IMG/VR virus record: IMGVR_UViG_3300030116_003833
Coordinates: 1-42,047 of that record
Strand: one strand, 5' to 3'
From: a virus
DNA: 42,047 nucleotides
The notes under the pieces were generated by a model. That model did no database searches. It was given only the letters and a program-made list of their open reading frames with translations, and had not been told where the DNA came from. This document shows positions 4,301 to 37,032 of this stretch, piece by piece. How positions within the stretch are numbered: position 1 is the first letter of the stretch; each line of letters opens with the position of its first letter. Position numbers and translations under genes: made by a program.

Positions 4301-4890
4301 GTGCTACTTTGCTTGAACCTGATGGTGATGAAAATGAAGTGGCTGAAATTATGCGCCATGCGAGGAAAAAAATCCAAAACGCTGACAAATCAATGACGGC
4401 TGACGAATTGATTGAAGGCACAAAGAATTTGACCGAGGCTATGCTTGACAAATACGGTAATGAATTTGGTCTTGAGCGTGTTGCTGAAACGGGAGAATGG
4501 ACTTTGAATGAAGCACTTGATGATGATACTGTTGAAACAAAGCAAGGATCTACACTTGCGAGAATCAGCGGTTCTTTATCGGGTGGTGGTTGGCAAGGTG
4601 AAATGGACATGATGACCGCACCAAGAGGGCCAACCTCCATTGTTGATGATGAAGGAATACCAATGTTTGACCCCAACGGGATGGCTGATGAGAAGCCAAC
4701 GCAATTGCCAAATCACATCAATGTGCGAACCAAAGACGGCACAGGTGAAAGCATAGAAGGCGACTTAGACATTGAAGAGGGTCGTGTTGTGCTTCGTGTT
4801 CCGCAAAAAACGAATGTTGAACAGGCTGCTGAGAACGAAGTGGTTGTTGAACAAGACGATGATAGTGAGCAAATGCCTATCATGTCGTGA
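1378..4890 (+). CDS. 1170-aa head-module protein with DNA-ligase-like nucleotidyltransferase domain
   Basis: The start is GTG 1378, led by TGAGGTGAT at 1366-1374, which overlaps the previous stop. Residues about 1-700 are hydrophilic, rich in His, Trp and Met, and unrecognised. Residues about 720-880 resemble the adenylation domain of ATP-dependent DNA ligases. KPEGKR at 738-743 fits motif I (KxxG; usually KxDGxR). A segment around 785-815 (GDFVFDAFLK, RAVDLLVHRGEDI, PLEDRLQILR) follows the order and spacing of the ligase core. GGDLWIRDAQSTFAKGKE at 850-867 sits where motif IV and V sequence is expected. The motif III and IV glutamates are missing, so activity is uncertain and the domain may be a pseudo-ligase. 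The C-terminus is acidic. It precedes the prohead protease, so a virion or head-morphogenesis role is inferred rather than a replication role. Confidence 0.75.
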   Translation: MNREEFIRIRTDALVSFHNNPDFSPAIYHKAYAEYYGDSQDIEKEDQAMMALMPMMNAPQYSMKDLDKPSILSNLEMPNGYEDFVAGQRRFSTNYAEDWPQANENNAFGKRHPLSWDNCVMPLLHGSQWGEPHFIEHLFQMIKEDEDGHNMLHAMQEMERRGVVPLEYRDVIGNPTEPMIDLYREDRETRHPFLSDEEYREMKTKQWGGSVGGKGKMIAKNTSRLGLLSYLFGTEWQTPEQRQAFMSLLKKLGQTSEEDSPNARKIINDFKAEAGISWDRAKRNWFERLTPLARWWERASHHHGPVSAEPTMEGLRHFKSPYVLDENGNTVPSHTNHHWEPYQYWGGVGRDCDSLRSMLSQSYPAAFKEGWLGDSLMGYLTDKNHPMNDRNDSYHGSGSSFFPSTINHPSMAMHPNRPALGSGWEAGSDNPRVRSFNRRRGLWNTISNHQHLHPEEVAGSGGRMIIPSMALTQHPIGRIISSHTDMGAPRIGPTRERHPGDEQYHTYHNDHYEKSDANIGTVMQEMAKDIMTRYGGQVFSQNQSDLLSNTINRGNIQQLAQAANYYLMRGTRENTKSVAPMVMGDGLASREVDVGPVNPMASATIPPIYLSGDKDAWGHKMPATLAWKWDMDENAIRFDVKDKPFDVIQKTAHEGHLDMVDPTHKMGGIAPKQSDSPALFSTNDMGHSPIVSGDLFKADDYEATGVFTTPVVPAHTIYKLSDIDELKGFSGDWVVQKKPEGKRVFVEKKGSKITAKNKQGKEVKMADIVKEGIREQMGDFVFDAFLKGKHLRAVDLLVHRGEDIHMEPLEDRLQILRTMYHTNDNISFPMPLDTKFTDQDGLMKNTHAIGGDLWIRDAQSTFAKGKEAHHLWILYSPDDESGLTKGTTLPFVSNDGENILLEYPGHIAPLVVKGEWEGDAFIVKSITPHSPLSRHAMKQIGVWGSLGVNMLKAGVREKTLYPPPLMTKDTFTFTRATLLEPDGDENEVAEIMRHARKKIQNADKSMTADELIEGTKNLTEAMLDKYGNEFGLERVAETGEWTLNEALDDDTVETKQGSTLARISGSLSGGGWQGEMDMMTAPRGPTSIVDDEGIPMFDPNGMADEKPTQLPNHINVRTKDGTGESIEGDLDIEEGRVVLRVPQKTNVEQAAENEVVVEQDDDSEQMPIMS

Positions 4891-6254: not shown

Positions 6255-6265
6255 GGTGATTTGTG

Positions 6266-7432
6266 ATGAGCGGAAGTCAAGGCTATATTAGAACAATTGA
6301 GGACATGGAACGCCTGTATTACGGTGCAGGATCAGGACAGAACGCATGGGCGTATTCGGGAACGGATTTGCTCAAGGCTGACTCCCCACTTGCCTCTTCA
6401 ACCAGCGGAACATACCAAGCGATCTTCGGGCGCAAGGTCTGGTCTCAATTGAACCAAGAATTCAACGCATTTTCAATCCTCCCAAAGAAACCTTGGGAGA
6501 AGTCGGGATGGCGTGTTACCACCGCTAAGCCTTCATTTGAGAAGGGTGGCGGTGTTCCTGAGAACGCAACCCTGCCTGAAACAACCAAGCCAACATTTGC
6601 TGAGGTCAGCACCAAGCCAAAGACTGTTGCACACACCTTTGACTTGACTGAGACTGCTATGTTCCTCGCTGACAAAGACGATGGTCTTGGTGATGCTCGT
6701 GCCGTTATCAAAATGGAAATGGCAAAGCACCACACAGAACACATCAACCGAATGCTGCTGAGCGACATTGATACCACCGCAGGGAACGACTTTGAATCCC
6801 TTGACCGTATCACCTCCAATTCCTACACGGAGGACTACAACACTTTCAGCGATGTGAGCGGAGAAGCAGACCACAACATCTATTCCTTGACCCGTGCGGG
6901 TCAAACCGCTGGTTCAGCCCAATGGTATGACGCACAGGTTGATGCTGGTGCAAGTGGTGCTGAGCGTTCACTATCCCTCAACATTCTTGACGGTATGTTC
7001 CGCCAAGTCTGGGAGGCTGGTGGCCAGCCCAAGGTTATCCTAACGGGCTATGATACGCTTGAAACCATCCAGCAATTGCTACAACCACAACAACGCTTTG
7101 TTGAAATGAAGCGTGTTGTTCCCGGTGTCAATGGTGTGAAGGGTGTTCCCGGTATTCAAGGTGGCTTCATGGTCGCTACATACAACGGTGTGCCAATCAT
7201 CCCATCCAAGGATGTCCACAAGGAATCTGGCGGTTCTTCTCGCCTTTACTTCCTTGACACGGATTACCTTTGGTTCACTACTGCAAAGCCTACTCTTTAC
7301 CACGAGTCTGGAATTGAAACAGGTGATCCATTCGGTATCAACCGTCTTGGACAAATGGGAATGTTTCACACAATGGGTGAATTGATTTGTGCCTTCTTCA
7401 AGGCTTCGGGCAAAATCCGAGACCTGAGTTGA
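6266..7432 (+). CDS. Major capsid protein, HK97 fold
   Basis: This encodes 388 aa. ATG 6266 is preceded at ideal spacing by GAGGTGAT (6253-6260); a GTG one codon earlier is less likely. The protein has the features of HK97-fold capsid proteins: a helical N-arm, a strand-rich segment with GVPENATLPETTKPTFAEVS (about 95-115) as the presumed E-loop region, a long spine-like helix (ARAVIKMEMAKHHTEHINRM), an A-domain region with VILTGYDTLETIQQLL, and a C-terminal GELICAFFKASGKIRDLS that closes the fold. It forms the icosahedral shell and is probably trimmed by the upstream protease. The codon choice is regular, as expected for a highly expressed gene. Identification rests on translated sequence and gene order. 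Confidence 0.88.
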   Translation: MSGSQGYIRTIEDMERLYYGAGSGQNAWAYSGTDLLKADSPLASSTSGTYQAIFGRKVWSQLNQEFNAFSILPKKPWEKSGWRVTTAKPSFEKGGGVPENATLPETTKPTFAEVSTKPKTVAHTFDLTETAMFLADKDDGLGDARAVIKMEMAKHHTEHINRMLLSDIDTTAGNDFESLDRITSNSYTEDYNTFSDVSGEADHNIYSLTRAGQTAGSAQWYDAQVDAGASGAERSLSLNILDGMFRQVWEAGGQPKVILTGYDTLETIQQLLQPQQRFVEMKRVVPGVNGVKGVPGIQGGFMVATYNGVPIIPSKDVHKESGGSSRLYFLDTDYLWFTTAKPTLYHESGIETGDPFGINRLGQMGMFHTMGELICAFFKASGKIRDLS

Positions 7433-11442: not shown

Positions 11443-11706
11443 ATGTTTGATGAAGCACCCGCATTCTTTGCTAAAATTCACCGCAAGGCTGGTGAATACA
11501 AAGATAAGGTGCAAAAGGAACACACTGATCAACCCTCTTACCTTGATGCCCTTCGCAATTTTGAAATCCAAAGTGCAAAAGAGGATGAAATTGAAATATC
11601 CGATGAGGAATTGGAGAACACCATGAAAACGCATAAGACCGCCAGCCCCTTCGCTATGGATAGGGCGGGTGCTTTAGCACAATTGTTGGAGGCGATTAGG
11701 GAATGA
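11443..11706 (+). CDS. Hypothetical acidic helical protein of the neck region
   Basis: This encodes 87 aa. The ATG at 11443 follows the previous stop by a few bases, with GATGGAG nearby as a weak ribosome site. It is rich in Glu, Lys and Ala with predicted helices (SYLDALRNFEIQSAKEDE, RAGALAQLLEAIRE). No known motif is seen. The stop overlaps the start of the tail completion gene by four bases, so the two are probably translationally coupled. It may be a chaperone or minor neck factor, though only position supports this. Confidence 0.55.
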   Translation: MFDEAPAFFAKIHRKAGEYKDKVQKEHTDQPSYLDALRNFEIQSAKEDEIEISDEELENTMKTHKTASPFAMDRAGALAQLLEAIRE

Positions 11707-12137
11707 CTGACGCAATCAGCAAGGTGGTTTCGTTGCTTGACCGCAATTGGAATGTGTCGCCTAAGCCATCCATTTTGGATATTGCCAATGTGGAGGTCGG
11801 TGAGGGCAAAAGGACACGCCTTCAAGACCATGACATTATCCGTATTTTTGAAACGGCTCACAATGAAGCCCAACCAGAATTATTCTTTGATTTCGTCAAT
11901 GAACACATCAACCTTACCATTGACATTCGCACGGTTAAGAGCCGTGAGCGTTTGTCAGCCCTTCGTAATGAAGTGCGGAGGATTTTACACGCCAACCGTA
12001 AAGGTGATGGCACATCCTTTGACAGACTCATTTTCAAGACGAGAACAGACTTGTCGGATCGTAGCAAACGGATGTTTCGCTACACAATGCAAGCGGAGGT
12101 CGTTACCTTCGCCCAAGTAATACCAGCAGTAGCGTGA
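11703..12137 (+). CDS. Tail completion/terminator-like protein
   Basis: This encodes 144 aa, with ATG overlapping the upstream stop. It begins with a helix and LLDRNWNVSPKPSILDIANVEV, then a strand-helix-strand pattern with HDIIRIFETA, INLTIDIRTVKSRERLSALRN and EVRRILHANRKGD, and ends in a strand (FRYTMQAEVVTFAQV). This alpha/beta layout with a central long helix is typical of tail completion (Tc1) and tail terminator proteins, which cap the tail tube and join it to the neck. Gene order (adaptor, this gene, tube) agrees. The match is by secondary-structure pattern, so moderate confidence. Confidence 0.5.
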   Translation: MTDAISKVVSLLDRNWNVSPKPSILDIANVEVGEGKRTRLQDHDIIRIFETAHNEAQPELFFDFVNEHINLTIDIRTVKSRERLSALRNEVRRILHANRKGDGTSFDRLIFKTRTDLSDRSKRMFRYTMQAEVVTFAQVIPAVA

Positions 12138-12143
12138 TGAAAG

Positions 12144-14324
12144 ATGACAGTAAATCAAGTGTATAAGGGTGATTTGGTTGAGGTTTCGCTCGCCAAGGAA
12201 ACAGGATTATTCGCTCAAGGTGGCAATTCGGCTGATGAATGGGCTACTGCGAATGGCTCAACCGACAATTCAAGTGTTATCACCATTGGGTCAAACATCT
12301 ATTGGTATCAGGAAATCCCAAAGAATATGCTTGTAGGTGCAACACTTCGCATTTATTCATCGGGCGGATCAAACAATTTCACATCCGATGATTTCCCATC
12401 GCAACGGAGGACATACTACATCACGGCAAACACCGACACGACCATTACCATTTCACCACGACTTGCCACCACGGGTTCAATCACCGCACACACAGGAGAT
12501 TACTTCATCATTGATTCATCACGAATCCCAACGATGGATGCTGACATGACCTATGGCACACCAGATGATCGTATCAAAGCCGACCAATTCCTTGGTTTGC
12601 TCAATTCGTTTGCTTTGCCCGAACCTGAAATTGATGTGCGAAAGCAACACATTGTTGGAATGGGTCGTGATGTCAATGTCCTAACCAGCGGGCGTGAAAT
12701 GCTTCAAGGTGGGTCGTTTGACACAAACGCCCACAGTCTGCGATGGCTACGCTACGCTCTCGGTGGACACACGGCTATTGGATATGGTGAATTGGCTCAC
12801 CGAACCACCAGCACCACCATTTTGACTGACGCACCATTGAACATCAAGGATGCAACCTCCACATACCGAGGGCAACAATACGGCAGCACAAATGCTGACG
12901 ACATTAGCGCAGTATCGGGAACAACGGCAACAGGACTTGGGTCAAACATTGACACAAATAGCGACTTCTTGCTCGGTGGTAAAGTGGCATCAAATGTGGG
13001 TGCGGTAATCACCCTTGCTGCGAATTATGATGCTACACATCAGAATGTAGGAACATCAGGTGTTGTCAAAACCCTGTCGGCTAATGGAAACGATGTGCTT
13101 TACGGATCGTATTCAAGTGCATCAACAACCGACATTACGGTTGCCGACATTACCAGCGGTGCGCTCACCCGCCTACAAACGGCAGGGGCGGTTGCCTACC
13201 TACTCGCTAAATTGGAGGCGAACATTACCCAAGGCGACATTCGTGTGAACCTTGGTGCAACAATTGCGGGTCGTCTATCCGTAGGCGAATACCTACAAAT
13301 TGTGGATAAGGACACCATTCAAATCCCCGGTGCTGATGATGAATTGCCTACAATCAATAAGCATGAAATCCGAAGAATCATCGCTATTGATGGTGCGTAT
13401 GTGTATGTTGAAGAACCATTCTTTTTCAGCCACACGGCTGCTTCATGTGGTGCTGACCGAATCATTTTCACCCACGATTCATCACAAGGCGCAACACGAA
13501 GAGGGAGTCCAGCGATTTTACCTACTACAAACGAATTGAAGTATGGAATCACCCACACCTTCTTTGGTGGTAGCACCGTTCCTACATTCGCCATTGAGCA
13601 ATCATTCCGCAAGACCAACGCTACACCGGGCGAGGAAAACCTACTCCGTGTGTTTTCAGGTTGTAAAGTCAATAGCGTAACCTGTTCGGCTGATACCGAA
13701 GGAGAATTCAAGGTAACGGGTGAGTATGAGGCGACCCGCCTTTTCACCGACACAGAATCCCGATTCTCAACACCACATCGTTTGTTTGAGAATACTGCAA
13801 ACACAAACATCAACCGCAGGGTTTCAGGTATTGCCGTGAATGGTGAGAAGCCGTATTTGTTTCAACACATCATTTTCAACACATTCGGTTCGCCCGTGCT
13901 TCGTGCTACACAATTGGAATTCGGTATCACCAACACCAACACCGCTCGCTACTACATCCGTGGAACAGACGGCAGTTATGCTACTGCGGATCAAGTGTCC
14001 GAAGCAGCGGTCAATTACGCTACTGAAATCACCGAGGCTCAGCGTGAATACACGATGAAATTCAACGCATTGGTGGAGGATAACCGCTTCTTTGAGCAAT
14101 TGCGACAACGCAAGCACCACATCAATGAGAACGACATTACCATCGTGTTGAACAAACCGGGTTCAGCAAGCACCCGTCAAAATGCAACCATCACGATTGA
14201 GGACTACACTATCACCAAAGCGGAAATGCCTATCCCTGACGACAAAGGGCCGGTAACTGCAAATGTTGAATTGGCGGTGCGACACCTTAAAGTCGTGGAG
14301 ACGAATCCATATCCAATCCTGTGA
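12144..14324 (+). CDS. Major tail tube protein, enlarged
   Basis: This encodes 726 aa from ATG 12144, with a weak purine-rich ribosome site. The last 300 residues match the tail-tube pattern: FFGGSTVPTFAIEQSFR, FSGCKVNSVTCSADTEG, FKVTGEYEATRLF, and a final NATITIEDYTITKAEMPIP, which correspond to the strands, inner-tube hairpin and domain-swapped C-terminus of siphovirus tube proteins. The N-terminal half contains extra beta domains, including a stretch near residues 360-440 (GDIRVNLGATIAGRLSVGE) similar to the recurring beta-module. Usual tube proteins have 150-250 residues, so most of this length is probably surface decoration of the tail. It polymerises around the tape measure with help of the G/GT chaperones. 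Confidence 0.7.
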   Translation: MTVNQVYKGDLVEVSLAKETGLFAQGGNSADEWATANGSTDNSSVITIGSNIYWYQEIPKNMLVGATLRIYSSGGSNNFTSDDFPSQRRTYYITANTDTTITISPRLATTGSITAHTGDYFIIDSSRIPTMDADMTYGTPDDRIKADQFLGLLNSFALPEPEIDVRKQHIVGMGRDVNVLTSGREMLQGGSFDTNAHSLRWLRYALGGHTAIGYGELAHRTTSTTILTDAPLNIKDATSTYRGQQYGSTNADDISAVSGTTATGLGSNIDTNSDFLLGGKVASNVGAVITLAANYDATHQNVGTSGVVKTLSANGNDVLYGSYSSASTTDITVADITSGALTRLQTAGAVAYLLAKLEANITQGDIRVNLGATIAGRLSVGEYLQIVDKDTIQIPGADDELPTINKHEIRRIIAIDGAYVYVEEPFFFSHTAASCGADRIIFTHDSSQGATRRGSPAILPTTNELKYGITHTFFGGSTVPTFAIEQSFRKTNATPGEENLLRVFSGCKVNSVTCSADTEGEFKVTGEYEATRLFTDTESRFSTPHRLFENTANTNINRRVSGIAVNGEKPYLFQHIIFNTFGSPVLRATQLEFGITNTNTARYYIRGTDGSYATADQVSEAAVNYATEITEAQREYTMKFNALVEDNRFFEQLRQRKHHINENDITIVLNKPGSASTRQNATITIEDYTITKAEMPIPDDKGPVTANVELAVRHLKVVETNPYPIL

Positions 14325-14340: not shown

Positions 14341-14361
14341 TAGATGAGAGGGTTGATACAG

Positions 14362-14718
14362 ATGGTAAGGCTGACAGGGTTTGTGATTGTTGAAGGGCGA
14401 AAGGTTTCGCTTGATTGGACTGTAATTGATGGTGGCATTGTGAACGCTGGTTCTCTATCGCCTTCAAACATCGTGGTTCATGCTGAAACACCGCACCTCC
14501 CACCACCACCGCCCCCTGTTGAAGCACCACCTTTGCCTGAAACGCCTCTTGACTACAACAGTATGAACAAGACTGAATTGATGACACTTTGTAGTCAGCG
14601 TGGGCTTTCAACCACAGGCACAAAGGCTGAGTTAATTGCTCGCCTTGAAGCCGATGATGCAGGGGCAGCCGAAGCCGTTGATGATGGTGAAAACGATGCC
14701 GAAAGCGAACCCCAATGA
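14362..14718 (+). CDS. SAP-domain protein with polyproline linker
   Basis: This encodes 118 aa from ATG 14362; ATG 14344 is in frame but sits only four bases after the TATA-like box. It has three parts: a small N-terminal beta domain (LTGFVIVEGRKVSLDWTVID), a proline-rich linker (about 44-62, including six consecutive prolines), and a clear SAP domain at about 64-98 (MNKTELMTLCSQRGLSTTGT, KAELIARLE), followed by an acidic tail. SAP domains usually bind DNA or chromatin-like surfaces. In tailed viruses, similar modules appear in small head or tail proteins. It lies between the tube and tail chaperone genes and overlaps the latter by 23 bases. It may be a tail-surface or assembly factor. Confidence 0.7.
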   Translation: MVRLTGFVIVEGRKVSLDWTVIDGGIVNAGSLSPSNIVVHAETPHLPPPPPPVEAPPLPETPLDYNSMNKTELMTLCSQRGLSTTGTKAELIARLEADDAGAAEAVDDGENDAESEPQ

Positions 14719-15058
14719 TCTGCTTATTTCAAGCGAAGCCCAAGAACACGACATTGAAACCCCGTTTGGGGAATTCAAGGTATGGGTGCGTGATCTATCA
14801 TGGATTGAGAGGCAAAACGCCCTAACACAATTTGTTTCATTGAAGCAAGGCGAGGATGGAACGCCTCAGCCAAGCATTGACTTTGGTGGCTTTTGGAAAT
14901 TCGTTTTGCTGAATTGCGTTGAACGCACCGAGCCTTCGTTGAGCAAGAAGCAATTGCTCAACATTCGCCCAGAAGTAGGTCAAGAATTGCAGAAAATTCT
15001 CCCATCATTTGATTCATTGATGGCGGGCATGGCACAACAAACAGGCCCTTTGGAATAA
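14696..15058 (+). CDS. Tail assembly chaperone, short form (lambda gpG-like)
   Basis: This encodes 120 aa. The start is ATG 14696, with GGTGA at 14686-14690 and inside the end of the SAP gene. The open frame extends further left, but those residues mirror the other gene. The protein has a small N-terminal strand domain (ETPFGEFKVWVRDLSWIE) and a helical C-terminal part (KQLLNIRPEVGQELQKILPS) typical of tail assembly chaperones of siphoviruses. These bind the tape measure and recruit tube subunits. The stop TAA at 15056 comes one codon after the slippery site CCCTTTG, so most ribosomes end here and a fraction continue as the long form. It lies directly upstream of the tape measure gene, as expected. 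Confidence 0.75.
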   Translation: MPKANPNDLLISSEAQEHDIETPFGEFKVWVRDLSWIERQNALTQFVSLKQGEDGTPQPSIDFGGFWKFVLLNCVERTEPSLSKKQLLNIRPEVGQELQKILPSFDSLMAGMAQQTGPLE

Positions 15059-15381
15059 CCCTTGATGATGTTCGTGCATTTACCACATGGAACGGAGAGG
15101 GCGACCCCCCGGTTGAATCCTACAAATTCCCAATCCTGTTCACACAAATGCCTCCATTTTTGTTAGCCAAATACTTCAATTGTTCACCCCACGAATGGGA
15201 TAATTTGCCACCTGAAAGGGTGCTTTTGGATTATTTCACAATGCTCGCATTAAAGGAAATTGAAGCCAAGGAAATGGACAAATTGAAGCGTAAGAACGCC
15301 ATGGGGCAGACAAAGGGGCGTAGCGTAAAGACCACGAGCGACACGGATTTCTTTGAAAGAATGAACAGGAGAATGGACTGA
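14696..15381 (+). CDS. Tail assembly chaperone, long form made by -1 frameshift (lambda gpGT-like)
   Basis: This 228-aa product is read in frame for 119 codons to 15052 and then continues in the -1 frame from 15052 to the stop at 15379-15381. The -1 frame is open only from 15013, after a stop at 15010-15012, so the shift must occur within about 43 bases before the TAA. The only good site there is C CCT TTG. The extension (GITLDDVRAFTTWNG, FLLAKYFNCSPHEWDNLPPE, RVLLDYFTMLALKEIEAKEM) is a typical T-domain. An ATG at 15148 exists, but starting there would remove the first third of that domain. The stop overlaps the tape measure ATG. The fusion is inferred from sequence and the lambda G/GT precedent. 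Confidence 0.75.
15046..15052 (+). other. Programmed -1 ribosomal frameshift site CCCTTTG
   Basis: In the zero frame the bases are read C CCT TTG GAA TAA, fitting the X XXY YYZ rule with X=C and Y=T. Slipping one base back gives CCC TTT and then GGA ATA ACC, which opens a 109-codon frame. The zero-frame stop follows after one codon. A GC-rich stretch about 45 bases downstream (GGGCGACCCCCC) might stimulate, but no convincing hairpin or pseudoknot was established. Confidence 0.7.
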
Positions 15382-16961
15382 TGGCGAAGAATAACACAAT
15401 CATGGGGATGGATCAATCCCTTCTTGATCACATTATCACGCTTCAAAAATATGAGGATGCCTTAGTCCGATTGCCTAATCGCCATCAAGTCATGCTCAAG
15501 GTTCTCGGCCCAATTTACAAAACATACCTCAAAGTCCAAATGGCAACACAAAGCACGACTCAAGCCTATCAATCCCAAGTGAAAACGACCAATACATTGG
15601 CGAAAGCCACGGCTGGTTTGCTTATTCCTTTGACCGCTACTGCTGCGATTTTCAAGGGAATTGGTTTGTCGCTATTCCCTCTCGTTGGGATGATTGTCGG
15701 TATCATGGGTGCGATGATGTTGTTGGTTGCGATATTCGATCAAGGGGGAGGGGCTTTACGGGCGTGGTTGGAGGAAATACCTATCATCGGCACGGTGTTT
15801 GAAGCCCTGCAATCAGCCGTGGATATGGTGAAGGGGCTGATAAGTGGCGAAGGTGATGGGGGTATGTTTGCCCCGATTGCTGATGCAGCCACTTCAATCA
15901 TAGGCAATATCATCACCGCATGGGAAACATTGACTTCATTGTTTGGGCCAATTGACGGTGAAGCGATATTTGGTGCGGTGTTCACAATCCTTGGTGGCTA
16001 CATATCGTTCTATTCAAACCTCATCAAGACAGTAGTGGATATGTTTGTAACTTTGTTTGTTGGTCTTGCTGACTCTGGTGCTTTGACGGCAATCATGGAT
16101 GGTCTAAGCGGTCTATTTGAAGCCTTGATGTTCGTTTGGACATTCGTGGTTGAAAGCATATTTGGAGAAGGTAGTGATGGGTTCTCCGCCTTCTTTGATG
16201 GAATTGCTTCTATGTTTGCCTATTTGGTGGACTTCTTGAACAATTCGGGTATTTTCCTATTCATCGGTGAAGTCATTGGTTTGGCAATTGACATTGTATC
16301 AACCATCATCATTGTGGTCGCTGCTATCATTGGTGTCATTGTGAAGGCGGTCAAATTCATTTGGCCGTTCATTGAACCGTATTTCCGCATTGTCATCAAT
16401 TATTGGGGAATGATTGCTACTGTCGTCATGGCAGTAGTGAACACGATTCTCAAGGTTATTCGTGGTGTGCTTGCATTCTTGCGTGGTGATCTTGACGGTG
16501 CATCCAAACATTTCACGGGCATCCTTGATGTTTGGGAAAAGGCATTAACCACACTATACAATTTCTTCATGGGTTGGGTTGATGGCATTTTGGATTTCAT
16601 TCAACCTGTCATTGATGCTATTGAATATGTTGTTGATGGCATTGAAAGTGTGGGAGGGGGTATTGTTTCTGGTATTGGTGGTTTCCTCGGATTTTCAAAG
16701 GGTGGTGTGGCATCAGGGCCTTCATCGGGCTACCCTGTTACCCTACACGGCACAGAAGCGATTGTTCCTTTGCCTGATGGCAGAAGCATACCTGTTGTCA
16801 TGCAAGGCATGGGTGGCGGAGGAAGTGAAACAAACACAATCAACATCACCGTGAACGGTGCGAATGGCGATGCCAGCAAGTTAGCACGAATGATAAGCGA
16901 TGAAGTAGGTCGTGCATTCAAGAACCGTAGTCGCAACGGTGGATTTAGCAGGGGTGTTTGA
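15381..16961 (+). CDS. Tail tape measure protein
   Basis: This encodes 526 aa, with ATG overlapping the preceding stop as TGATG. An N-terminal helical region (about 1-75) is followed by several hydrophobic segments (TAGLLIPLTATAAIFKG, FPLVGMIVGIMGAMMLLVAI, AIDIVSTIIIVVAAIIGVIV) typical of tape measures that insert into the host membrane. The C-terminus has FSKGGVASGPSSGYPVTLHG and TEAIVPLPDGRSIPVV, a signature seen at the end of many tape measure proteins, followed by a glycine-rich stretch. It sets tail length and is packed inside the tube. If fully helical, 526 residues would correspond to a tail of roughly 80 nm. It is short compared with the giant fibre genes that follow. Confidence 0.85.
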   Translation: MAKNNTIMGMDQSLLDHIITLQKYEDALVRLPNRHQVMLKVLGPIYKTYLKVQMATQSTTQAYQSQVKTTNTLAKATAGLLIPLTATAAIFKGIGLSLFPLVGMIVGIMGAMMLLVAIFDQGGGALRAWLEEIPIIGTVFEALQSAVDMVKGLISGEGDGGMFAPIADAATSIIGNIITAWETLTSLFGPIDGEAIFGAVFTILGGYISFYSNLIKTVVDMFVTLFVGLADSGALTAIMDGLSGLFEALMFVWTFVVESIFGEGSDGFSAFFDGIASMFAYLVDFLNNSGIFLFIGEVIGLAIDIVSTIIIVVAAIIGVIVKAVKFIWPFIEPYFRIVINYWGMIATVVMAVVNTILKVIRGVLAFLRGDLDGASKHFTGILDVWEKALTTLYNFFMGWVDGILDFIQPVIDAIEYVVDGIESVGGGIVSGIGGFLGFSKGGVASGPSSGYPVTLHGTEAIVPLPDGRSIPVVMQGMGGGGSETNTINITVNGANGDASKLARMISDEVGRAFKNRSRNGGFSRGV

Positions 16962-18221: not shown

Positions 18222-20879
18222 ATGCCTGTTCGGAAAATTCACACCAAAGCGGTGAGGCTAAACGGATATACCGATGGAATGGTTGTTCCTACGGGCGCAT
18301 TCCGTGAAAGCGGTGTTGATTTGTTTGCTAATGATCATAGCGAAAAGACGGGTGCTACAAACAAAGTATCGTCATACGAAAGTGATGCCCCCAAAATAGG
18401 GCGACACCATTTGCCAATGGAGGGGAACGGACTCAACAATTTGATTGGTGCTTTCACCCTTGAAGCGTTTGTCATTCCTGATCACGGAGGCGTTGTCATT
18501 CACAAAGAGAATGGCTTTACATTGAAAGTAGGAGAACCCTTTCAACCAGCACCAATCATTTTTGAAATACACACGAGGACATCCAATGGCAACCAAAGTG
18601 AACGGCTAAGCACACCATTCAATGTTCCTACTGTTCAAGAGTCATGGGGAACATATACAGACGGTCAAGCAAAGCCACACGATTTGTCATTACCATCCCG
18701 TGAATTGCTATATGTCAATGCACAATTCACCACGAAAAAAATGTCAATTTTTGTAAATGGCAATTTGGTCGCTGAGCAAGACTTTGGTGGTGATGAACGC
18801 CTTATTCGTGTTGGTTCATCCGACCTCTTCATTGGTGGTGAAGGAGGGGAGTATCGTGGAGTCATTGAGAGCGTGAGAATTAGCCGAGGTATTGTTGAAC
18901 CATTGGTTCGCCCGTTCACCACAACACCAGATACGGTTGGTTTGTGGGATTTTGAGGATGAGGATGATATACCACAGTTATTCTTTTTCAACAACAAAAA
19001 CCCATCCCACCCCCATCAAGGCAAGGATGGCATAGGTGCTACTGATGCGTTGATGCCTATGCCTATGGTTTGTGTTGCTTATGACTTCACAAACATTGAC
19101 CCCGGTGGTGCGGTAACTACTGCTTCGGGGCATCCCCTCAATTTAGCAAGTGGCTACAAATACGGGTATTTTCGGATAAGGGATTTTCCTGATAGCGTCA
19201 TAGCCAACCTTGAAGATCGCACAACCGCATTGGAAATGCTTGCAGCACACATCCTTTCTATGCCTGTCAATGAATTGAAATTTCAATCGTGGTGGGATAG
19301 TGGATTGCTGGACATTTCATCAACAATCACCAACGCAACCTATCATTCCGATGGAATCCCTGTTTCAAACATCAATGCCATCGTGAACGCTTCAGGAACA
19401 AACCCAATCACAGGAGGGAGTATGTCGCCATTTACTTACTACCGTGAAAGCGATACTGCACCTTATTCACCCGAAGGGGGTATCAACCTTGACCCCATGG
19501 CTAATCCAATTGAGCGTGTGCGAATTGTTGCCATTGACTTCAAGGGTGATTCGTCTTTGGGGCGACCTCCTTGCGTAGTAATTCAATCATCTATTCTGTC
19601 AGACACCACAAACGACCCAACAACACAGGGATTTTTGTTTGAACACGCTGATAATACCCCTGTTTGGTTCACGCTTGGCAACGGTGATTTGGTGATTGAC
19701 CCCGGCAAAAAAGGCACACGACCAAGAGGACAAATGACTCGTGCGAGGTTCACACAAAATCAACGCTTCACCGATCGAACAGGATTGGGAAACGATGCCT
19801 ACTTCATTTCACGCAAATCAAGAATGACAAATGACATGAAAAACAAATTGTCGGTTGTTTCAGGTTCACAATTCTCCTACGAACCTCCCCATGGCAACGA
19901 CCTTCTTCTGTGGCTTGATGCAAACGACAAAAATCAATTGTTGAGGGATGATGGAACGGCAGTAGTCAGCGATGATGAGTATGTGTTTTGGTGGAAAAAC
20001 AAAGCACGGGGTGGCCCGACAACAAATGCGGGAACGGACTATCACTTCTATTCATGGGGCAACGGATGGCGGTGGAAGGAGAATTGCGGTGCTGCCAATA
20101 ACCGCTCAGGCTTGGTTGCGGTGGCAATATCCGAAGTAGTGCAGAATCCAACGGGCGGATATGTTTGGCCCGGTGGCACACCTACAATTCAAACGGGTGT
20201 TATTGTTCCGCAATACCCAACAGGAGTAACCTACTACAAAGGTTCTTCATGGGTCAATGGTTTTGGCAATTCTGGATCGGCAAGAATAAATCACGCAGCC
20301 TCCATAACCGCAACGGCTTTGGGTTCAGCACACGCCAGCACACTATACGGTGGTGGCCCGTCTATGACAGATGGCGACCATTCGTTTTACTTTGTCATCA
20401 CCCCTGCCTATGGTAGCGACCCATTGGGTCTTTTGCATTCCGAAGCCAACGATGGATTTGTGTTTCGTTTGGATGATTCGTCTGATGACATAAGCGTCAG
20501 TATTACAGGTTCATCAACACTATCGGCTGGTGCATCAACCCGCCCAACGACAGGCACACCGACTTTAATCGCTTTGAGAATTGACGAATCAACAAACACC
20601 ATCAAAATCCTAAAACGCTCTAACGGTGGTGCTTCAAAAGACGAGTATTCAAACATAGGATTCACTTCAACCAATCCCTTGGTTTTTGACGGCACTACGG
20701 CACAAACGGGAGGAATTGAATTGTTTGGGGAAATGACCGCAAGTGGGGGCAACAACCTTATTGACAACATGGCACAAAACGGTTTCATAGCCCATGAAGT
20801 GTTGGCATACCCCAAATTGCTGACCGATGCTGAACACGATGATGTTGTTCAATGGTTTGAGGACAGGTATGGTGTTTGA
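18222..20879 (+). CDS. Tail fibre/adhesin protein with two concanavalin-like (LamG) domains
   Basis: This encodes 885 aa. ATG 18222 directly follows the upstream stop; the frame is open further left but only in the shadow of that gene. Residues about 60-235 look like a LamG/concanavalin A-like jelly roll: LIGAFTLEAFVIPDHGGVV, YVNAQFTTKKMSIFVNGNLV, DLFIGGEGGEYRGVIESVRI. Residues about 575-885 contain another (NDLLLWLDANDKNQLL, SFYFVITPAYGSD, GFIAHEVLAYPKLLTDAEHD). Such domains bind glycans or protein surfaces and are common in receptor-binding tail proteins. With the next gene it probably forms the tail tip or side fibres that contact the archaeal cell surface. Confidence 0.65.
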   Translation: MPVRKIHTKAVRLNGYTDGMVVPTGAFRESGVDLFANDHSEKTGATNKVSSYESDAPKIGRHHLPMEGNGLNNLIGAFTLEAFVIPDHGGVVIHKENGFTLKVGEPFQPAPIIFEIHTRTSNGNQSERLSTPFNVPTVQESWGTYTDGQAKPHDLSLPSRELLYVNAQFTTKKMSIFVNGNLVAEQDFGGDERLIRVGSSDLFIGGEGGEYRGVIESVRISRGIVEPLVRPFTTTPDTVGLWDFEDEDDIPQLFFFNNKNPSHPHQGKDGIGATDALMPMPMVCVAYDFTNIDPGGAVTTASGHPLNLASGYKYGYFRIRDFPDSVIANLEDRTTALEMLAAHILSMPVNELKFQSWWDSGLLDISSTITNATYHSDGIPVSNINAIVNASGTNPITGGSMSPFTYYRESDTAPYSPEGGINLDPMANPIERVRIVAIDFKGDSSLGRPPCVVIQSSILSDTTNDPTTQGFLFEHADNTPVWFTLGNGDLVIDPGKKGTRPRGQMTRARFTQNQRFTDRTGLGNDAYFISRKSRMTNDMKNKLSVVSGSQFSYEPPHGNDLLLWLDANDKNQLLRDDGTAVVSDDEYVFWWKNKARGGPTTNAGTDYHFYSWGNGWRWKENCGAANNRSGLVAVAISEVVQNPTGGYVWPGGTPTIQTGVIVPQYPTGVTYYKGSSWVNGFGNSGSARINHAASITATALGSAHASTLYGGGPSMTDGDHSFYFVITPAYGSDPLGLLHSEANDGFVFRLDDSSDDISVSITGSSTLSAGASTRPTTGTPTLIALRIDESTNTIKILKRSNGGASKDEYSNIGFTSTNPLVFDGTTAQTGGIELFGEMTASGGNNLIDNMAQNGFIAHEVLAYPKLLTDAEHDDVVQWFEDRYGV

Positions 20880-20881
20880 TT

Positions 20882-23800
20882 ATGCCCGAATTAACTGAAA
20901 GTATGATTCTCACCGCAATTGCTACTGATGCTGCAACGGCATCAACCGAATTGACTCAAGCCCTAATTGAAATGACACAGTATATGCCTGTTGTAATCGT
21001 TCCCAATTTGCCCGGTCAAGCAGACCCGGTTGAAATTGTGGAACATGAATTTGCCATATCCGCATACAACGCAATCCGTTGGATGATAACGAAAGGTTTG
21101 GTTACAAAAGGCCCGTTATTGGCAACCCTTTTGATTGAATTGGGCGCAAACCCTCATGCGCCTCCTACACCACCAGCGCACACCATCAACGATCTGGATG
21201 ATTATTACATCAATGTTGTAAATGGTGGCTCAGTCATACTCAATTCGGGGGATATTACCGCTGCGTTCCTTGGTGTTCCTTCAACCCCAATTTACGGTAG
21301 TGGCAACCCACCAGCAACAGGCGATGCCTTCTCAACCGTTTCTGGTAATTTGACACAACCTGTGAAGGACATACCGGGTATGTGCGGTTTAACCTCCTAC
21401 AATCGTGTTGAAGGTCATTTCTATTTGAAGCACTTGCCCGAACCAAAATTGGAAAGTGTGCGAAGGACTGTGCAAGGGGTCAGCGATAGGTTTGAAAGCC
21501 AATATGAAGATCCGCACATCAAAAGTGTGGTGTCCAACAATGAGAAGGTGCGATTGACTGAGCAAGTCTTTTCTGGTGAACCATTGACAATTGAAACCAA
21601 GACTCAATTGGCAACCTACACGGCAAGTGGTGTGGTAAAACACGCCTTTGTTGTTCAAGGGGGCGACTCTTTCACCGACACAACCTATGGGAATGTGGTG
21701 TCATCAACACAGGATTCAATTGTAGCAATTGCTTTGGAGGACATTCGCCCGTTTTTATTGAAAGGCTTAGACGATGAGGAAAACGCATTGTTTGATTTGG
21801 TGAACCCAACAAAACCAACAAATGAAAATTATGTCCGTCATTTAGCACCAGAAGCGGAGAGCAGGGTTGCGGTGCTTGAAACCCCTACTGCCCTACAAAA
21901 TGCGGGCGGGCCATCAAAAATACTGATTCACTACAACGCCATTGATTTGACAGGAGAAGTGGTGGCTGGTTGGAAATCATCATCATACTTCACCGCCAGC
22001 GACCATGCTCACACATACCGCAACGACATGGATGCTATTTTGACAATGGAGTCAAAAGGGTGGCTGGTTGTTGAGAAAACCGTTCCTGACACAAACACGG
22101 TGTTTGTTGATACTTCACATGGCTATCCTGTTTATCGCACCGTGTTGGATTGGTTAAGGCGACCTTACAACGCAAACCAATTCTCATCACCACCCACATA
22201 TACTCCTTTGACAATTCATTCACCGGGCGGTATTATCACCATCCCGTCAAAGGACTTTCAAGGGGAATTGATTGACAATTCTTTGCGATCTAACCCTACG
22301 GGCGACCTATCCATTTCACCCTTCATCAATTTGGATAACTGCGCCCACACCGTTATTCAACAAACCATAGCGGGCAACCGAATACGGAATGACCCATACG
22401 GGCCACCCGTTGCTATTCCGCACACCCGTAGCCCAATTCAAAAGAACGATAGCGTGTATCACACCTTGACTATCACGAGCCAAACCAAAGAGGATTTGCG
22501 TTCTTCATACTCACAATCACCATCATTGACCCCTGTCAATTTTGAACAATTTGACATCATTGATAATTTGGTAAAAGGGGATAGGCACACTATCCTTATC
22601 CAACCATCAAACAGGATGCGAACCAAAACACTTGAAACAATCAAAACACGCCAAGATGGTCTTTCACGCCATCACAATTGCAGTATTGAATTAACCTTGA
22701 TGCGGGGTCGCATTGAAGAAGTCAATCCGTTAAGCGGGGATGATAATGCGAGCGGTGTGTCTTTGCGTGGGCGTTCTCAATTGCTTGACATTACCGATCG
22801 TTTAGCCGAGCGAGACTTCTCATTGAATGAAGGATTTGGTGTGAAGGAAATAGGTGATTTGGGTTCACCAGCGGTGAGCATGACTCTTGGTGGTCTGGGT
22901 CAAGGTGGTATTGATGTAGCACCGACTCGCACCGAGCATAGCAAATTGCCAATTTGGAAGGATAAGGTGATTGGCACAAACAACCCATCCGTGCGGAATG
23001 ACAAACAAACCTCAACCTACTATGCCTCCACGAGAGCATTGGTTGAATTGCCGTTGTTCCCATCAATGTTCTATGACATCAATAATTGGTTGCCAACCAG
23101 CGTTGAAAAAAGAAGTCCTTTACCTACGGAAAAGTGCATGGAAATGGTAATTGATTGCACTATGACGGCAATAAACCGCCCACAAATGCAACATTACGAA
23201 AACCGATGGGCGATTGATTGGGGTATGCGTGGTAGCGTTTCATCAATGAAAATCCACGACTACAAACCCGTAGCAGGGCAAACCATCATTCGTTTCATGC
23301 GTGAAAACGCTGCTTCGTTTTTGAAATTGGGAACATACTCAGGGGGTGAAACGATTGCTGCGTCAGGCACATCGGCATCCGATTCATACATTGAAGTGGA
23401 TAGCGTTTATCCATTTGTTGAAGAAGGGGGTATCAATTCATTTGCGAGCATAAGCAACAAAAATGCCACGGGCATTACAATCAACACACTTCTTGGTGAA
23501 CCAGCAGGATCAACCACATTGGTGGTAACTTCGGATGCCCGACTTCATTTCAAAACGGGCGACAAAATTTACGCTGGTATTTCAGGTGCTTTTGTAGGAA
23601 CGGTTGCTTCGGTAACCAGCACAAACATCAATTTGACAAGCGGTTCGCTTGTGTCATTGAATAACGGAGAGGATATTAGCACACCGTATTGGAATCTTGG
23701 TTCAGCAAGTGCTACACCAAATGGCGACAATGGTTTTGCAGTTACCGTTGGAGAAGGCGTGATAAACGACACAGGTGGCATCCGCCTCCGCATTTACAAA

Positions 23801-26695
23801 GCGTCAATTCACGGGTTATCACATCGTCTGTATTTTGACACATTTCACGATTGGGGGAATCAGGCAGCGACATTGACCGAAGTCAAAAATCAAATGATTA
23901 TTGGGTTGCCTGTTGTAATGGGTTGTTGGCTATCCGATAATGATTCAAGTTTCAACGGAACGGTTCAACCGTTGGTTGGATTTTCCGCTACTGCTGGAAC
24001 GAGCAATAGCACCATGGCACAGAATTTCATCAATCCAATGAAGAACGCTCTATGCCTTGGAAATACCCCAAGCAATAGGACTTCAATTTGCATTGACCCA
24101 TCGGACAGTAGTCGCATCCTAATCAATGGCGGGGTGTCCATGGAGGGCTTCTCATTTGACCCCGGCAATCACCTATACGGTGCTGATGATATGCCACTAC
24201 TCCCTCCTGTGGAATGTAGGACAGGTCATTTCGCTCTCAAAGGCAAGCGTAATGACAACACATTGGATTATGTTCGCCCACTACATATAAACCTTGGAAG
24301 TGTAGCCAATTCAAACAATGTCAGCAATTTCCGTGAAGCGGTCAATGAAGTGATACGGAAAATCAATCAAGCAGGGCATCCAGATGCGAAGAATAGCAAC
24401 GGAGGAAGCGCATTCAACCCACCACAATTATTCACAGAAGCAGACGGAACAGAAACCGTTTCAAGCCTTGATACGGGAACGCACATGGGTTATGTCCGTG
24501 CGTTCTTGGGCGAAAATGTTGAAAGCCGTGATGGTGAAAGAGGCATTTCAATTGTAATTCATAGCACTATTCCCGGTGCTACGGGTCGCAATTTTGCCGT
24601 GTGGTTGCACAACCGAGGTATCTATCCTTATCGCCCTATCCAAACAATAGGGCATGGTGGGTTGTTGGCGACAAATAGCCGATCGTATCAGGCTTCATCA
24701 TTCCCTGCCCCTTTGCCATTAGGTATGGATGGGGAAACACATATTCCGATTACTACATTTCAAGGAGGTGTCCACGGTTCACTTCAAAATGCCAAGGGCG
24801 ACCTTCGCACCTACAACGGAATAGGCAGCGAATTTATTCTCAAAGGGATAAAGAACGCCAAGACAAATGCTGGCAACAATTTCCCGGCTTATGACATTGT
24901 TTCATTCCCACACATAGCCGTTGAAAGGAACGCATTGGATTTAATCAAACGGTATAGTCAGCACACCGATTCTTCAAGTGTTGGCTACATTTTGGTTGAT
25001 GATAAATTGGTTGGAACATTTGAAAATATCGTGGGTGCAATTGGTGGAACAAACGCCAAGCGAGAAGGTGTAGGGTCGTGTGCATTCTTAACCAATGCTC
25101 AACCTGTTGATGATGGACTGATTAAGAAGTGGTCGGAGTCCTTTGTTGATCGTAATGGAGAAGCAAAGGATTCAGTCATTCGCATCCTCTATCCTTTACC
25201 TGACGCACACGGCATTCTGTTCTTTGGTGGTGGACACACGGGAACGGTCTTTGACATCAGCGATGGAACGAATAACGATTACTCCGATTTTTACACACAT
25301 CATTATTCTCAAGGGCCAACGGGTTATGGTGGCTTTCAAAACCTACACGAAGTGCAAACATCGGCAGCCGTATTGGACTTCACAAACCTCAAAAATACAG
25401 ATACCGTCAAGGAAAACACCTATCAAGGAATACACACTAAGCATGGGGTTGTTCAATCGGGTCAAATGCCCGATGATTCGCACTACATTGAAAATGAATG
25501 TGTGTTCTATGCAAGACTAAACGAAGATGCACTATTCGCCACAAACCACGGAACAAACGGTGTTGAACAAAAAATTGACACATTGTTTGGGGTTAAGGGT
25601 GTCCTTTACGGCAATTACTCGGCTAATGCTTTGGGTGGCCCAATCACGGCTGACGGAGATTCAAAGGGCATGGATTGGGCTACTGCCAATAACATGGCTA
25701 TGTCGCTACATCATGTGGGCGAAGGAACAGGCACGAGTCCTCAAATGCGTGTCGCTTTGACTGACCCAACCAGAATAGTCGGTTCTGATCCGCAAGGGTA
25801 TTCTGTGTCGTTTTTCGTGAGCGCAAAACCAAACATAGGCCCATGGACAAGTGAAGCATACGCTAATGGCCCTGTGCTTCATGCTATCACAGATAACAAT
25901 GCAACGCTCGGTGTGTCGCTATTGACAAAAGAAGGAAGCGACCCTGCTATGATGGAAATGATTGTAGTCGTGAGGTGTCCTCAAAGCATTGGTTCACAAT
26001 TTGACTACTATTGTCCAGCATTTGAAGTGGAAAAAGACGCATGGACTCATATTGTTGTTTCATGGACTACCGGGCCAAACGCTCAAATTTATGTTGATGG
26101 TGTTTTTCAAGCGTATGCGGGTGGCACATCATCCGCTGCGGAATTGCGACAGATGGGTGATTCATCATACGAAGCGGGTTCAATCGCAAACACCCCTCAT
26201 TTAGCACCAACCATGGGAATCCCAAGACTCGTTTCGTCTGGGGTGCTGGTGAATAAAACGGGAGGCTATACGGCTGGTGAAACGGACACGATTGTGGTTG
26301 ATACCGTAACTGCAAGGTCGCAATTCTCAATTGGCGATGAGGTGTTCAATGCAAGTGATCAAATCTTGGGCGTTATCAAGACACTTAACGACACAGGAAT
26401 CACCTTCACGACCAAATTGATAAATGCCGTTGGCAACAATGGCAATTTGAAGAAGGCATCAGCATTGGCAAGCACTTGGTATGGGCGCACAAGCAATATG
26501 CTCGCCATTGGAACGGCAATCAATTCTTTAACACCAACCTCAACCTACTACTATGGGCGACACTATGGCGGTGCATCCAACGCTTACGATCCGATTTGTT
26601 TCAAGGGTGCGCTTGCAGAAGTAGCGTTGTGGAATAAAGTGCTATCACAAGCAGAAGTAACCGAATTGTTTGATGCTCAAGGGGTGTGGAATTGA
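20882..26695 (+). CDS. Giant tail protein with C-terminal LamG domain
   Basis: This encodes 1937 aa from ATG 20882, just after the previous stop. The N-terminal 60 residues are helical, and the rest is strand-rich. A small beta-module of the type GDKIYAGISGAFVGTVASVT lies at about residues 876-935 and a related one (IGDEVFNASDQILGVIKTLN) near 1800-1855. Residues about 1638-1937 look like a LamG/concanavalin-like domain (YSVSFFVSAKPNIGPWTSEA, TGPNAQIYVDGVFQAYAGGT, FKGALAEVALWNKVLSQAEV) interrupted by the second module. There is no visible catalytic motif. It is likely a baseplate or fibre component used in adsorption. Function is inferred from domain type and gene order. Confidence 0.6.
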   Translation: MPELTESMILTAIATDAATASTELTQALIEMTQYMPVVIVPNLPGQADPVEIVEHEFAISAYNAIRWMITKGLVTKGPLLATLLIELGANPHAPPTPPAHTINDLDDYYINVVNGGSVILNSGDITAAFLGVPSTPIYGSGNPPATGDAFSTVSGNLTQPVKDIPGMCGLTSYNRVEGHFYLKHLPEPKLESVRRTVQGVSDRFESQYEDPHIKSVVSNNEKVRLTEQVFSGEPLTIETKTQLATYTASGVVKHAFVVQGGDSFTDTTYGNVVSSTQDSIVAIALEDIRPFLLKGLDDEENALFDLVNPTKPTNENYVRHLAPEAESRVAVLETPTALQNAGGPSKILIHYNAIDLTGEVVAGWKSSSYFTASDHAHTYRNDMDAILTMESKGWLVVEKTVPDTNTVFVDTSHGYPVYRTVLDWLRRPYNANQFSSPPTYTPLTIHSPGGIITIPSKDFQGELIDNSLRSNPTGDLSISPFINLDNCAHTVIQQTIAGNRIRNDPYGPPVAIPHTRSPIQKNDSVYHTLTITSQTKEDLRSSYSQSPSLTPVNFEQFDIIDNLVKGDRHTILIQPSNRMRTKTLETIKTRQDGLSRHHNCSIELTLMRGRIEEVNPLSGDDNASGVSLRGRSQLLDITDRLAERDFSLNEGFGVKEIGDLGSPAVSMTLGGLGQGGIDVAPTRTEHSKLPIWKDKVIGTNNPSVRNDKQTSTYYASTRALVELPLFPSMFYDINNWLPTSVEKRSPLPTEKCMEMVIDCTMTAINRPQMQHYENRWAIDWGMRGSVSSMKIHDYKPVAGQTIIRFMRENAASFLKLGTYSGGETIAASGTSASDSYIEVDSVYPFVEEGGINSFASISNKNATGITINTLLGEPAGSTTLVVTSDARLHFKTGDKIYAGISGAFVGTVASVTSTNINLTSGSLVSLNNGEDISTPYWNLGSASATPNGDNGFAVTVGEGVINDTGGIRLRIYKASIHGLSHRLYFDTFHDWGNQAATLTEVKNQMIIGLPVVMGCWLSDNDSSFNGTVQPLVGFSATAGTSNSTMAQNFINPMKNALCLGNTPSNRTSICIDPSDSSRILINGGVSMEGFSFDPGNHLYGADDMPLLPPVECRTGHFALKGKRNDNTLDYVRPLHINLGSVANSNNVSNFREAVNEVIRKINQAGHPDAKNSNGGSAFNPPQLFTEADGTETVSSLDTGTHMGYVRAFLGENVESRDGERGISIVIHSTIPGATGRNFAVWLHNRGIYPYRPIQTIGHGGLLATNSRSYQASSFPAPLPLGMDGETHIPITTFQGGVHGSLQNAKGDLRTYNGIGSEFILKGIKNAKTNAGNNFPAYDIVSFPHIAVERNALDLIKRYSQHTDSSSVGYILVDDKLVGTFENIVGAIGGTNAKREGVGSCAFLTNAQPVDDGLIKKWSESFVDRNGEAKDSVIRILYPLPDAHGILFFGGGHTGTVFDISDGTNNDYSDFYTHHYSQGPTGYGGFQNLHEVQTSAAVLDFTNLKNTDTVKENTYQGIHTKHGVVQSGQMPDDSHYIENECVFYARLNEDALFATNHGTNGVEQKIDTLFGVKGVLYGNYSANALGGPITADGDSKGMDWATANNMAMSLHHVGEGTGTSPQMRVALTDPTRIVGSDPQGYSVSFFVSAKPNIGPWTSEAYANGPVLHAITDNNATLGVSLLTKEGSDPAMMEMIVVVRCPQSIGSQFDYYCPAFEVEKDAWTHIVVSWTTGPNAQIYVDGVFQAYAGGTSSAAELRQMGDSSYEAGSIANTPHLAPTMGIPRLVSSGVLVNKTGGYTAGETDTIVVDTVTARSQFSIGDEVFNASDQILGVIKTLNDTGITFTTKLINAVGNNGNLKKASALASTWYGRTSNMLAIGTAINSLTPTSTYYYGRHYGGASNAYDPICFKGALAEVALWNKVLSQAEVTELFDAQGVWN

Positions 26696-26696
26696 T

Positions 26697-35570: not shown

Positions 35571-35911
35571 TGCCTGTGTTAGACGGAATAAAAGCGGAGT
35601 TAGCAAAACACCTTGAGTCTGTTGTCAAAAAAATGAGTCTGGGAACAACAGGTGGTCGTGCCACCAGCAAAGACGGTGGGGCGGGTAATGTCGCATTCAC
35701 CGTAACTCCAACGGTGCAACGCATTGACGATAGGGCAATTTCAATCACGGGTGTTTTTGACACCCAATTGGTGAGCGCAAGTGATGTGAAGGAGGTTGTA
35801 GTGCATGGTGCTACTCCCCTTGATCACCCTGCGTTCCGTGCATCGTTTGTGCCAATTAGCAAGAACGAAACCACAGAAGTCCGTGTTGATGTTGTCATGG
35901 AAGTGAAATGA
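35570..35911 (+). CDS. 113-aa baseplate-associated protein, unrecognised
   Basis: The ATG at 35570 overlaps the stop of the giant hub gene and is preceded by GAGGTGAG. The N-terminal 22 residues form a helix (IKAELAKHLESVVKKMSL), then a Gly/Ser-rich segment and a strand-rich C-terminal half (AISITGVFDTQLVSASDVKE, ETTEVRVDVVMEVK). No motif is recognised. It overlaps the methyltransferase gene by four bases. A small tail-tip or fibre-attachment protein is plausible by position. Confidence 0.55.
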   Translation: MPVLDGIKAELAKHLESVVKKMSLGTTGGRATSKDGGAGNVAFTVTPTVQRIDDRAISITGVFDTQLVSASDVKEVVVHGATPLDHPAFRASFVPISKNETTEVRVDVVMEVK

Positions 35912-37023: not shown

Positions 37024-37032
37024 GGTGATTGA

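Follow-up and report, generated by a model that had tools for sequence, protein, structure and literature searches.

An invariant CCCTTTG heptamer points to a -1 frameshifted G/GT tail chaperone pair in a probable magrovirus-like archaeal tailed virus

How is the second of two overlapping reading frames expressed when it appears to have no start of its own? The window, which is the whole 42,047-nucleotide stretch of viral DNA that was analysed, carries two overlapping open reading frames, G and T, directly 5' of the tape measure gene, and T lies in the -1 frame relative to G. Frameshifted tail chaperone pairs are well known in tailed viruses, and the preliminary description of this DNA had proposed such a pair, with a slip at CCCTTTG. 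The features that bear on the question, all on the plus strand, are as follows.

6263 to 7432, plus strand: HK97-type major capsid protein (phrog_24667, E 2.7e-51)
12144 to 14324, plus strand: tail-module protein, which its position alone makes a candidate major tail protein; 51-87% identity in the relatives checked
14344 to 14718, plus strand: SAP-domain protein (Pfam SAP, E 3.3e-11), overlapping G by 23 nt
14696 to 15058, plus strand: ORF G, short tail assembly chaperone, zero frame, 120 aa by translation, from ATG 14696 to TAA 15056-15058
15013 to 15381, plus strand: open stretch of the -1 frame; T part of GT from 15052, 109 aa
14696 to 15381, plus strand: predicted 228-aa GT fusion, made by a -1 shift at 15052
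15046 to 15052, plus strand: putative slippery heptamer, C CCT TTG, at which re-pairing from CCU to CCC in the P site and from UUG to UUU in the A site is predicted
15056 to 15058, plus strand: zero-frame stop TAA, one codon past the heptamer; TAA or TGA equally spaced in all relatives
15059 to 15101, plus strand: candidate stimulatory stem-loop whose lower stem would pair 15059-15063 with 15097-15101 (CCCUU/GAGGG)
15381 to 16961, plus strand: tape measure protein of 526 aa, matching phrog_58 among other tape-measure families (E 1.4e-15)

In the zero frame, G ends with GGC CCT TTG GAA TAA. The preliminary description had placed the heptamer in the G frame one codon ahead of the stop, and all of its coordinates are right; translation likewise confirmed that the -1 frame is closed up to 15012 and then open to the TGA at 15379-15381, where the T stop overlaps the tape measure ATG (TGATG). 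After a -1 slip on CCC TTT G, reading would continue as GGA ATA ACC CTT GAT GAT, so that the predicted GT junction joins QQTGPL to GITLDDVRAF and the predicted frameshift-spanning peptide of GT is TGPLGITLDDVR.

To place the heptamer in a comparative setting, we searched IMG/VR with G, T, and their profiles and obtained 36 loci, including the window, that represent 26 distinct protein pairs. Thirty-four of them were recovered by G-internal protein patterns blind to the heptamer, and all of these loci nonetheless carry it. CCCTTTGGNNTRA is kept in 36/36 loci (26 distinct protein pairs), and CCCTTTGGNN followed by TAA or TGA stands at the same place in every one of the 36. CCCTTTG-GNN-TRA is thus invariant though identity to the window drops to 33% for T and 40% for G. 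The synonymous positions are fixed as well. Across 18 representative lineages the Pro codon is always CCT and the Leu codon always TTG (identical in 153/153 pairs each), and same-codon use at conserved residues is 0.94 in the last block of G, compared with about 0.44 over the whole of G. By the codon usage of the window, CCT together with TTG has a probability of 0.14 per lineage, or roughly 7e-11 over 12 independent lineages. Within the window, in-phase XXXYYYZ heptamers occur at 32 of 9,845 codon positions, which gives a chance of about 4% for one within the overlap of about 13 codons; C CCT TTG is the sole in-phase heptamer of this form in G. Judged from sequence, the heptamer in the window alone is weak evidence, while the comparison takes the pattern far beyond chance.

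The preliminary description had proposed an alignment of related viral genomes, and it had named as outcomes against a frameshift either a T part that is fused to G or separately started, or a heptamer that is not conserved. Among the homologues found there is neither a single-frame G-T fusion nor a conserved T start codon, every T homologue lies in the -1 frame, and the heptamer and the frame relation are kept in every one, so that neither outcome is seen in the 36 loci. The same comparison refutes the idea that the two frames stem from faulty assembly, or from a single fused gene that has decayed through a frameshift mutation. The data are genome assemblies only, but 26 distinct sequences, drawn from many metagenomes, share the break to the base, and both G and T are under protein-level constraint; we regard the probability of such an artefact as negligible.

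A separate T could also arise by termination at the G stop and reinitiation on the overlapping AUA (AUAA) or CUG (CUGA). Coupling of two genes is possible in principle, and the T-frame codon over the stop reads ATA in almost every relative, with CTG in L076, L078, and L089. The AUA, however, is dictated by the TAA stop and the conserved Ile/Leu. Moreover, the lineages with a TGA stop have CTGA rather than the strong ATGA that restart would favour, and reinitiation offers no reason why CCCTTTG ahead of the stop should be invariant, synonymous positions included. We consider this route very unlikely. More improbable still is an internal start yielding a short T, such as ATG 15148 served by the purine-rich GGAGAGGG as a ribosome site. 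The ATG is present and GGAGAGGG is kept in the main clade, but this sequence codes for Gly-Glu-Gly, which is conserved, and is the partner of the CCCUU arm in the candidate stem-loop, the T region ahead of the ATG (GITLDD) is conserved in the family, and the invariant heptamer argues against such a start. In addition, this ATG, 135 nt into the open stretch, is the first ATG, GTG, or TTG of the T frame, and the Met that it encodes at T position 33 varies within the family, which agrees with the earlier claim that T lacks its own start.

The identity of G as a tail assembly chaperone is supported by profile and by fold. Twelve of the 18 members of the G family hit phrog_25860, annotated 'tail assembly chaperone', with a best E of 3.9e-4, and G aligns with the G protein of HVTV-1 by hhalign (E 5.7e-6, probability 85.5). 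In a Foldseek search of BFVD, the AF2 model of G (mean pLDDT 76) resembles the tail assembly chaperone of Haloarcula hispanica tailed virus 2 (HHTV-2; E 3.3e-6), as well as several bacteriophage tape-measure/tail assembly chaperones and, more weakly, Mu FS-gp41. A structure search of the PDB with the G and T models returned nothing usable, and tblastn of G and T against phages gave nothing, or chance matches only. Polyubiquitin matches of the G profile were dropped, as their source was a repeated weak 30-residue stretch. The G/GT reading of the preliminary description is thus supported by the PHROG, hhalign, and structure searches of G, together with synteny. Its label of a typical T-domain fared differently: the T model is helical and fairly confident (mean pLDDT 82), and neither sequence nor fold backs the label, with no relative of T in PHROG, Pfam, or the PDB. 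Nor is T recognisably similar to the T part of HVTV-1. Because T parts diverge fast, we did not take T-domain similarity as defining, and position, frame, and conservation are what suggest the identity of T. The T half of such genomes is easily missed, being absent from every family library searched.

The order of genes in the relatives is tail protein, (SAP protein), G, T, tape measure, next tail gene, with edges missing from a few truncated loci. A homologue of the 12144-14324 protein, which has no family match in PHROG or Pfam, occupies the corresponding position in every relative checked; the SAP protein does so in most relatives and was not detected in two. The SAP protein (14344-14718) is small and proline-rich, and a DNA-binding SAP domain is odd in a tail module. 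At 11703-12137 is a 144-aa tail-module protein with a weak match to tail-completion gp17; in the main clade, its identity of 73-92% far exceeds the conservation of G, of T, and of the tape measure protein, but it went undetected in most of the distant relatives. Two giant ORFs (1939 and 2966 aa; 20876-35570) that overlap by 26 nt lie 3' of the tail genes and probably encode tail tip or fibre proteins.

The preliminary description had assigned the DNA to a probable archaeal virus, and both the capsid protein and the gene content of the relatives support this. Matches to the capsid protein were found in nine of 50,697 phage records, all of them archaeal viruses (eight Haloarcula viruses and one Methanofastidiosa virus), which places it within the archaeal tailed-virus clade (archaeal Caudoviricetes). 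A 100-kb relative (G001) encodes PolB, an ERCC4 nuclease, a TCP-1/cpn60 chaperonin, a clamp-loader-like ATPase, and an HMGL-like enzyme. Over 20 records (the relatives and the window), ERCC4 is present in 14, the chaperonin in five, and PolB in G001; neither ERCC4 nor the chaperonin is in the 42-kb window, an IMG/VR record that is possibly a fragment. In 14 control genomes, ERCC4 was found in 4/4 archaea and 0/10 bacteria. The PolB, ERCC4 nuclease, chaperonin, and HMG-CoA-lyase-like genes found among the relatives resemble the set described for the Poseidoniales magroviruses (Magrovirales: Aoguangviridae, Apasviridae; PMC10160649, PMC10768690). As the window itself holds mainly structural genes, the magrovirus label is given by kinship. 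A G-profile scan of GTDB genomes found neither a provirus nor another relative. Taken together, the DNA is probably that of a marine tailed archaeal virus of the magrovirus kind, with members of the Poseidoniales as the probable host. A tail assembly chaperone is labelled on the map of the Aoguangviridae (PMC10768690), and we found no mention of frameshifting in the magrovirus papers examined.

The arrangement had been described as little documented in archaeal viruses, which is fair in extent, but it is not new: a -1 G/GT frameshift has been published as a prediction for HVTV-1 and HCTV-1, -2, and -5 (PMC5009743, PMC8211752) and for Hardycor1 (PMC7911831). The nearest annotated relatives of the capsid protein lie among the haloviruses with such a prediction. 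HVTV-1 and HCTV-5 (Druskaviridae) share with the window the series protease, capsid, tail genes, G, GT, and tape measure, the -1 direction, a homologous capsid protein (32% identity), and the G protein related by hhalign. They differ from it in the signal, which is GGGAAAG at 27 nt before the G stop rather than CCCTTTG at 3 nt, and in T parts that are not recognisably related to the T of the window. Our check of the records gave GGGAAAG for HVTV-1 and HCTV-5 and GGGAAAC for HCTV-1, each 27 nt before the G stop, and the annotated GT products of these three viruses are joined at those heptamers. Hardycor1 (HrrHc1_110/115) is likewise an archaeal siphovirus with a predicted -1 slippery site before the tape measure gene, but it has the heptamer G GGA AAT and a haloarchaeal host (PMC7911831). 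Lambda gpG/gpGT also has G in the zero frame and T in the -1 frame ahead of the tape measure gene (PMC5009743), while its heptamer is another one, no sequence similarity was found, and its host is bacterial. The G/GT arrangement itself is therefore already known in archaeal viruses, and its conservation here is unusually strong.

A possible stimulator lies downstream of the heptamer, which the preliminary description had not mentioned. From 6 nt past the heptamer a stem-loop can be folded, with the CCCUU/GAGGG pairing in the main clade and with different stems at the same or nearly the same spacing in the distant L087, L090, and L093. Compared with resampling of synonymous codons, the fold here is more stable than elsewhere in T (mean z -1.72 versus -0.46 in other T parts, p 9e-5; p 0.003 when 14 representative lineages were compared over a shorter segment that cuts into the main-clade stem), with p-values that are inflated by the relatedness of the lineages. 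These observations make the stem-loop at 15059-15101 a good candidate. The frameshift could equally be real and the hairpin not, the CCCUU/GAGGG pairing merely reflecting the conserved codons of ITLDD and GEG. In favour of this, covariation is weak and not above shuffles, the window's own sequence folds no better than shuffles (z -0.9), and L089 and L096 have either no clear stem or an altered one. Against it speak the protein-preserving resampling, whose folds fall short of the native one by more here than elsewhere in T, and the other stems formed at about the same spacing in the three distant lineages. RNAalifold found no shared stem register in the distant clade, so we claim the hairpin as a candidate only. 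The halovirus regions downstream of the heptamer fold no better than shuffles. We take codon constraint to be a real possibility as the source of the pairing, though clearly short of even odds.

We conclude, with a probability of roughly 0.93, that the locus is a lambda-type G/GT chaperone cassette with a -1 slip at C CCU UUG in an archaeal virus of the magrovirus kind. According to this model, the majority of ribosomes would read G and terminate at TAA 15056, while in a minority the tRNA-Pro on CCU and the tRNA-Leu on UUG would move back one base onto CCC UUU, perhaps assisted by the downstream hairpin. Ribosomes that slip would bypass the G stop and produce GT. On the analogy of lambda, many copies of G and few of GT may coat the tape measure protein, and T may recruit the tail tube protein. 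Against the slip counts the A-site codon UUG, which would have a third-position mismatch on UUU.

The heptamer is apparently unreported in prokaryotic viruses, as our literature search, of incomplete coverage, found no report of CCCUUUG/CCCTTTG as a frameshift site in a prokaryotic virus; the one paper naming it concerns West Nile virus. C CCU UUG was likewise not encountered as a measured prokaryotic site, which also counts against the slip. We further propose, more tentatively and at only just under even odds, that marine archaeal tailed viruses share a fixed module consisting of C CCU UUG, one codon, a stop, and a hairpin starting about 6 nt on, which would combine a tRNA-Leu slip on UUG and a heptamer unreported in prokaryotic viruses with a downstream stimulator of a kind rare in archaea. 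The only -1 frameshifting demonstrated by experiment in archaea is that of the cellular gene fucA1 from Saccharolobus solfataricus (PMC8211752). The archaeal-virus -1 cases so far are halovirus predictions, and the invariant marine site carries G/GT beyond the haloarchaeal viruses and offers a short, well-defined signal for testing slippage of archaeal ribosomes.

Elsewhere in the window, just 5' of the prohead protease, is a 1170-aa ORF (1378-4890) that has a KxxGxR-like stretch and a weak likeness, not passing the Pfam cut-off (E 0.077), to the domain of ATP-dependent DNA ligases. A C-5 cytosine DNA methylase gene is found at 35908-37023 (Pfam E 9.6e-12). The capsid gene match in the record behind locus L086 (G011, 36051-37256) contains one in-frame TAG, which is either a sequencing error or a site of readthrough.
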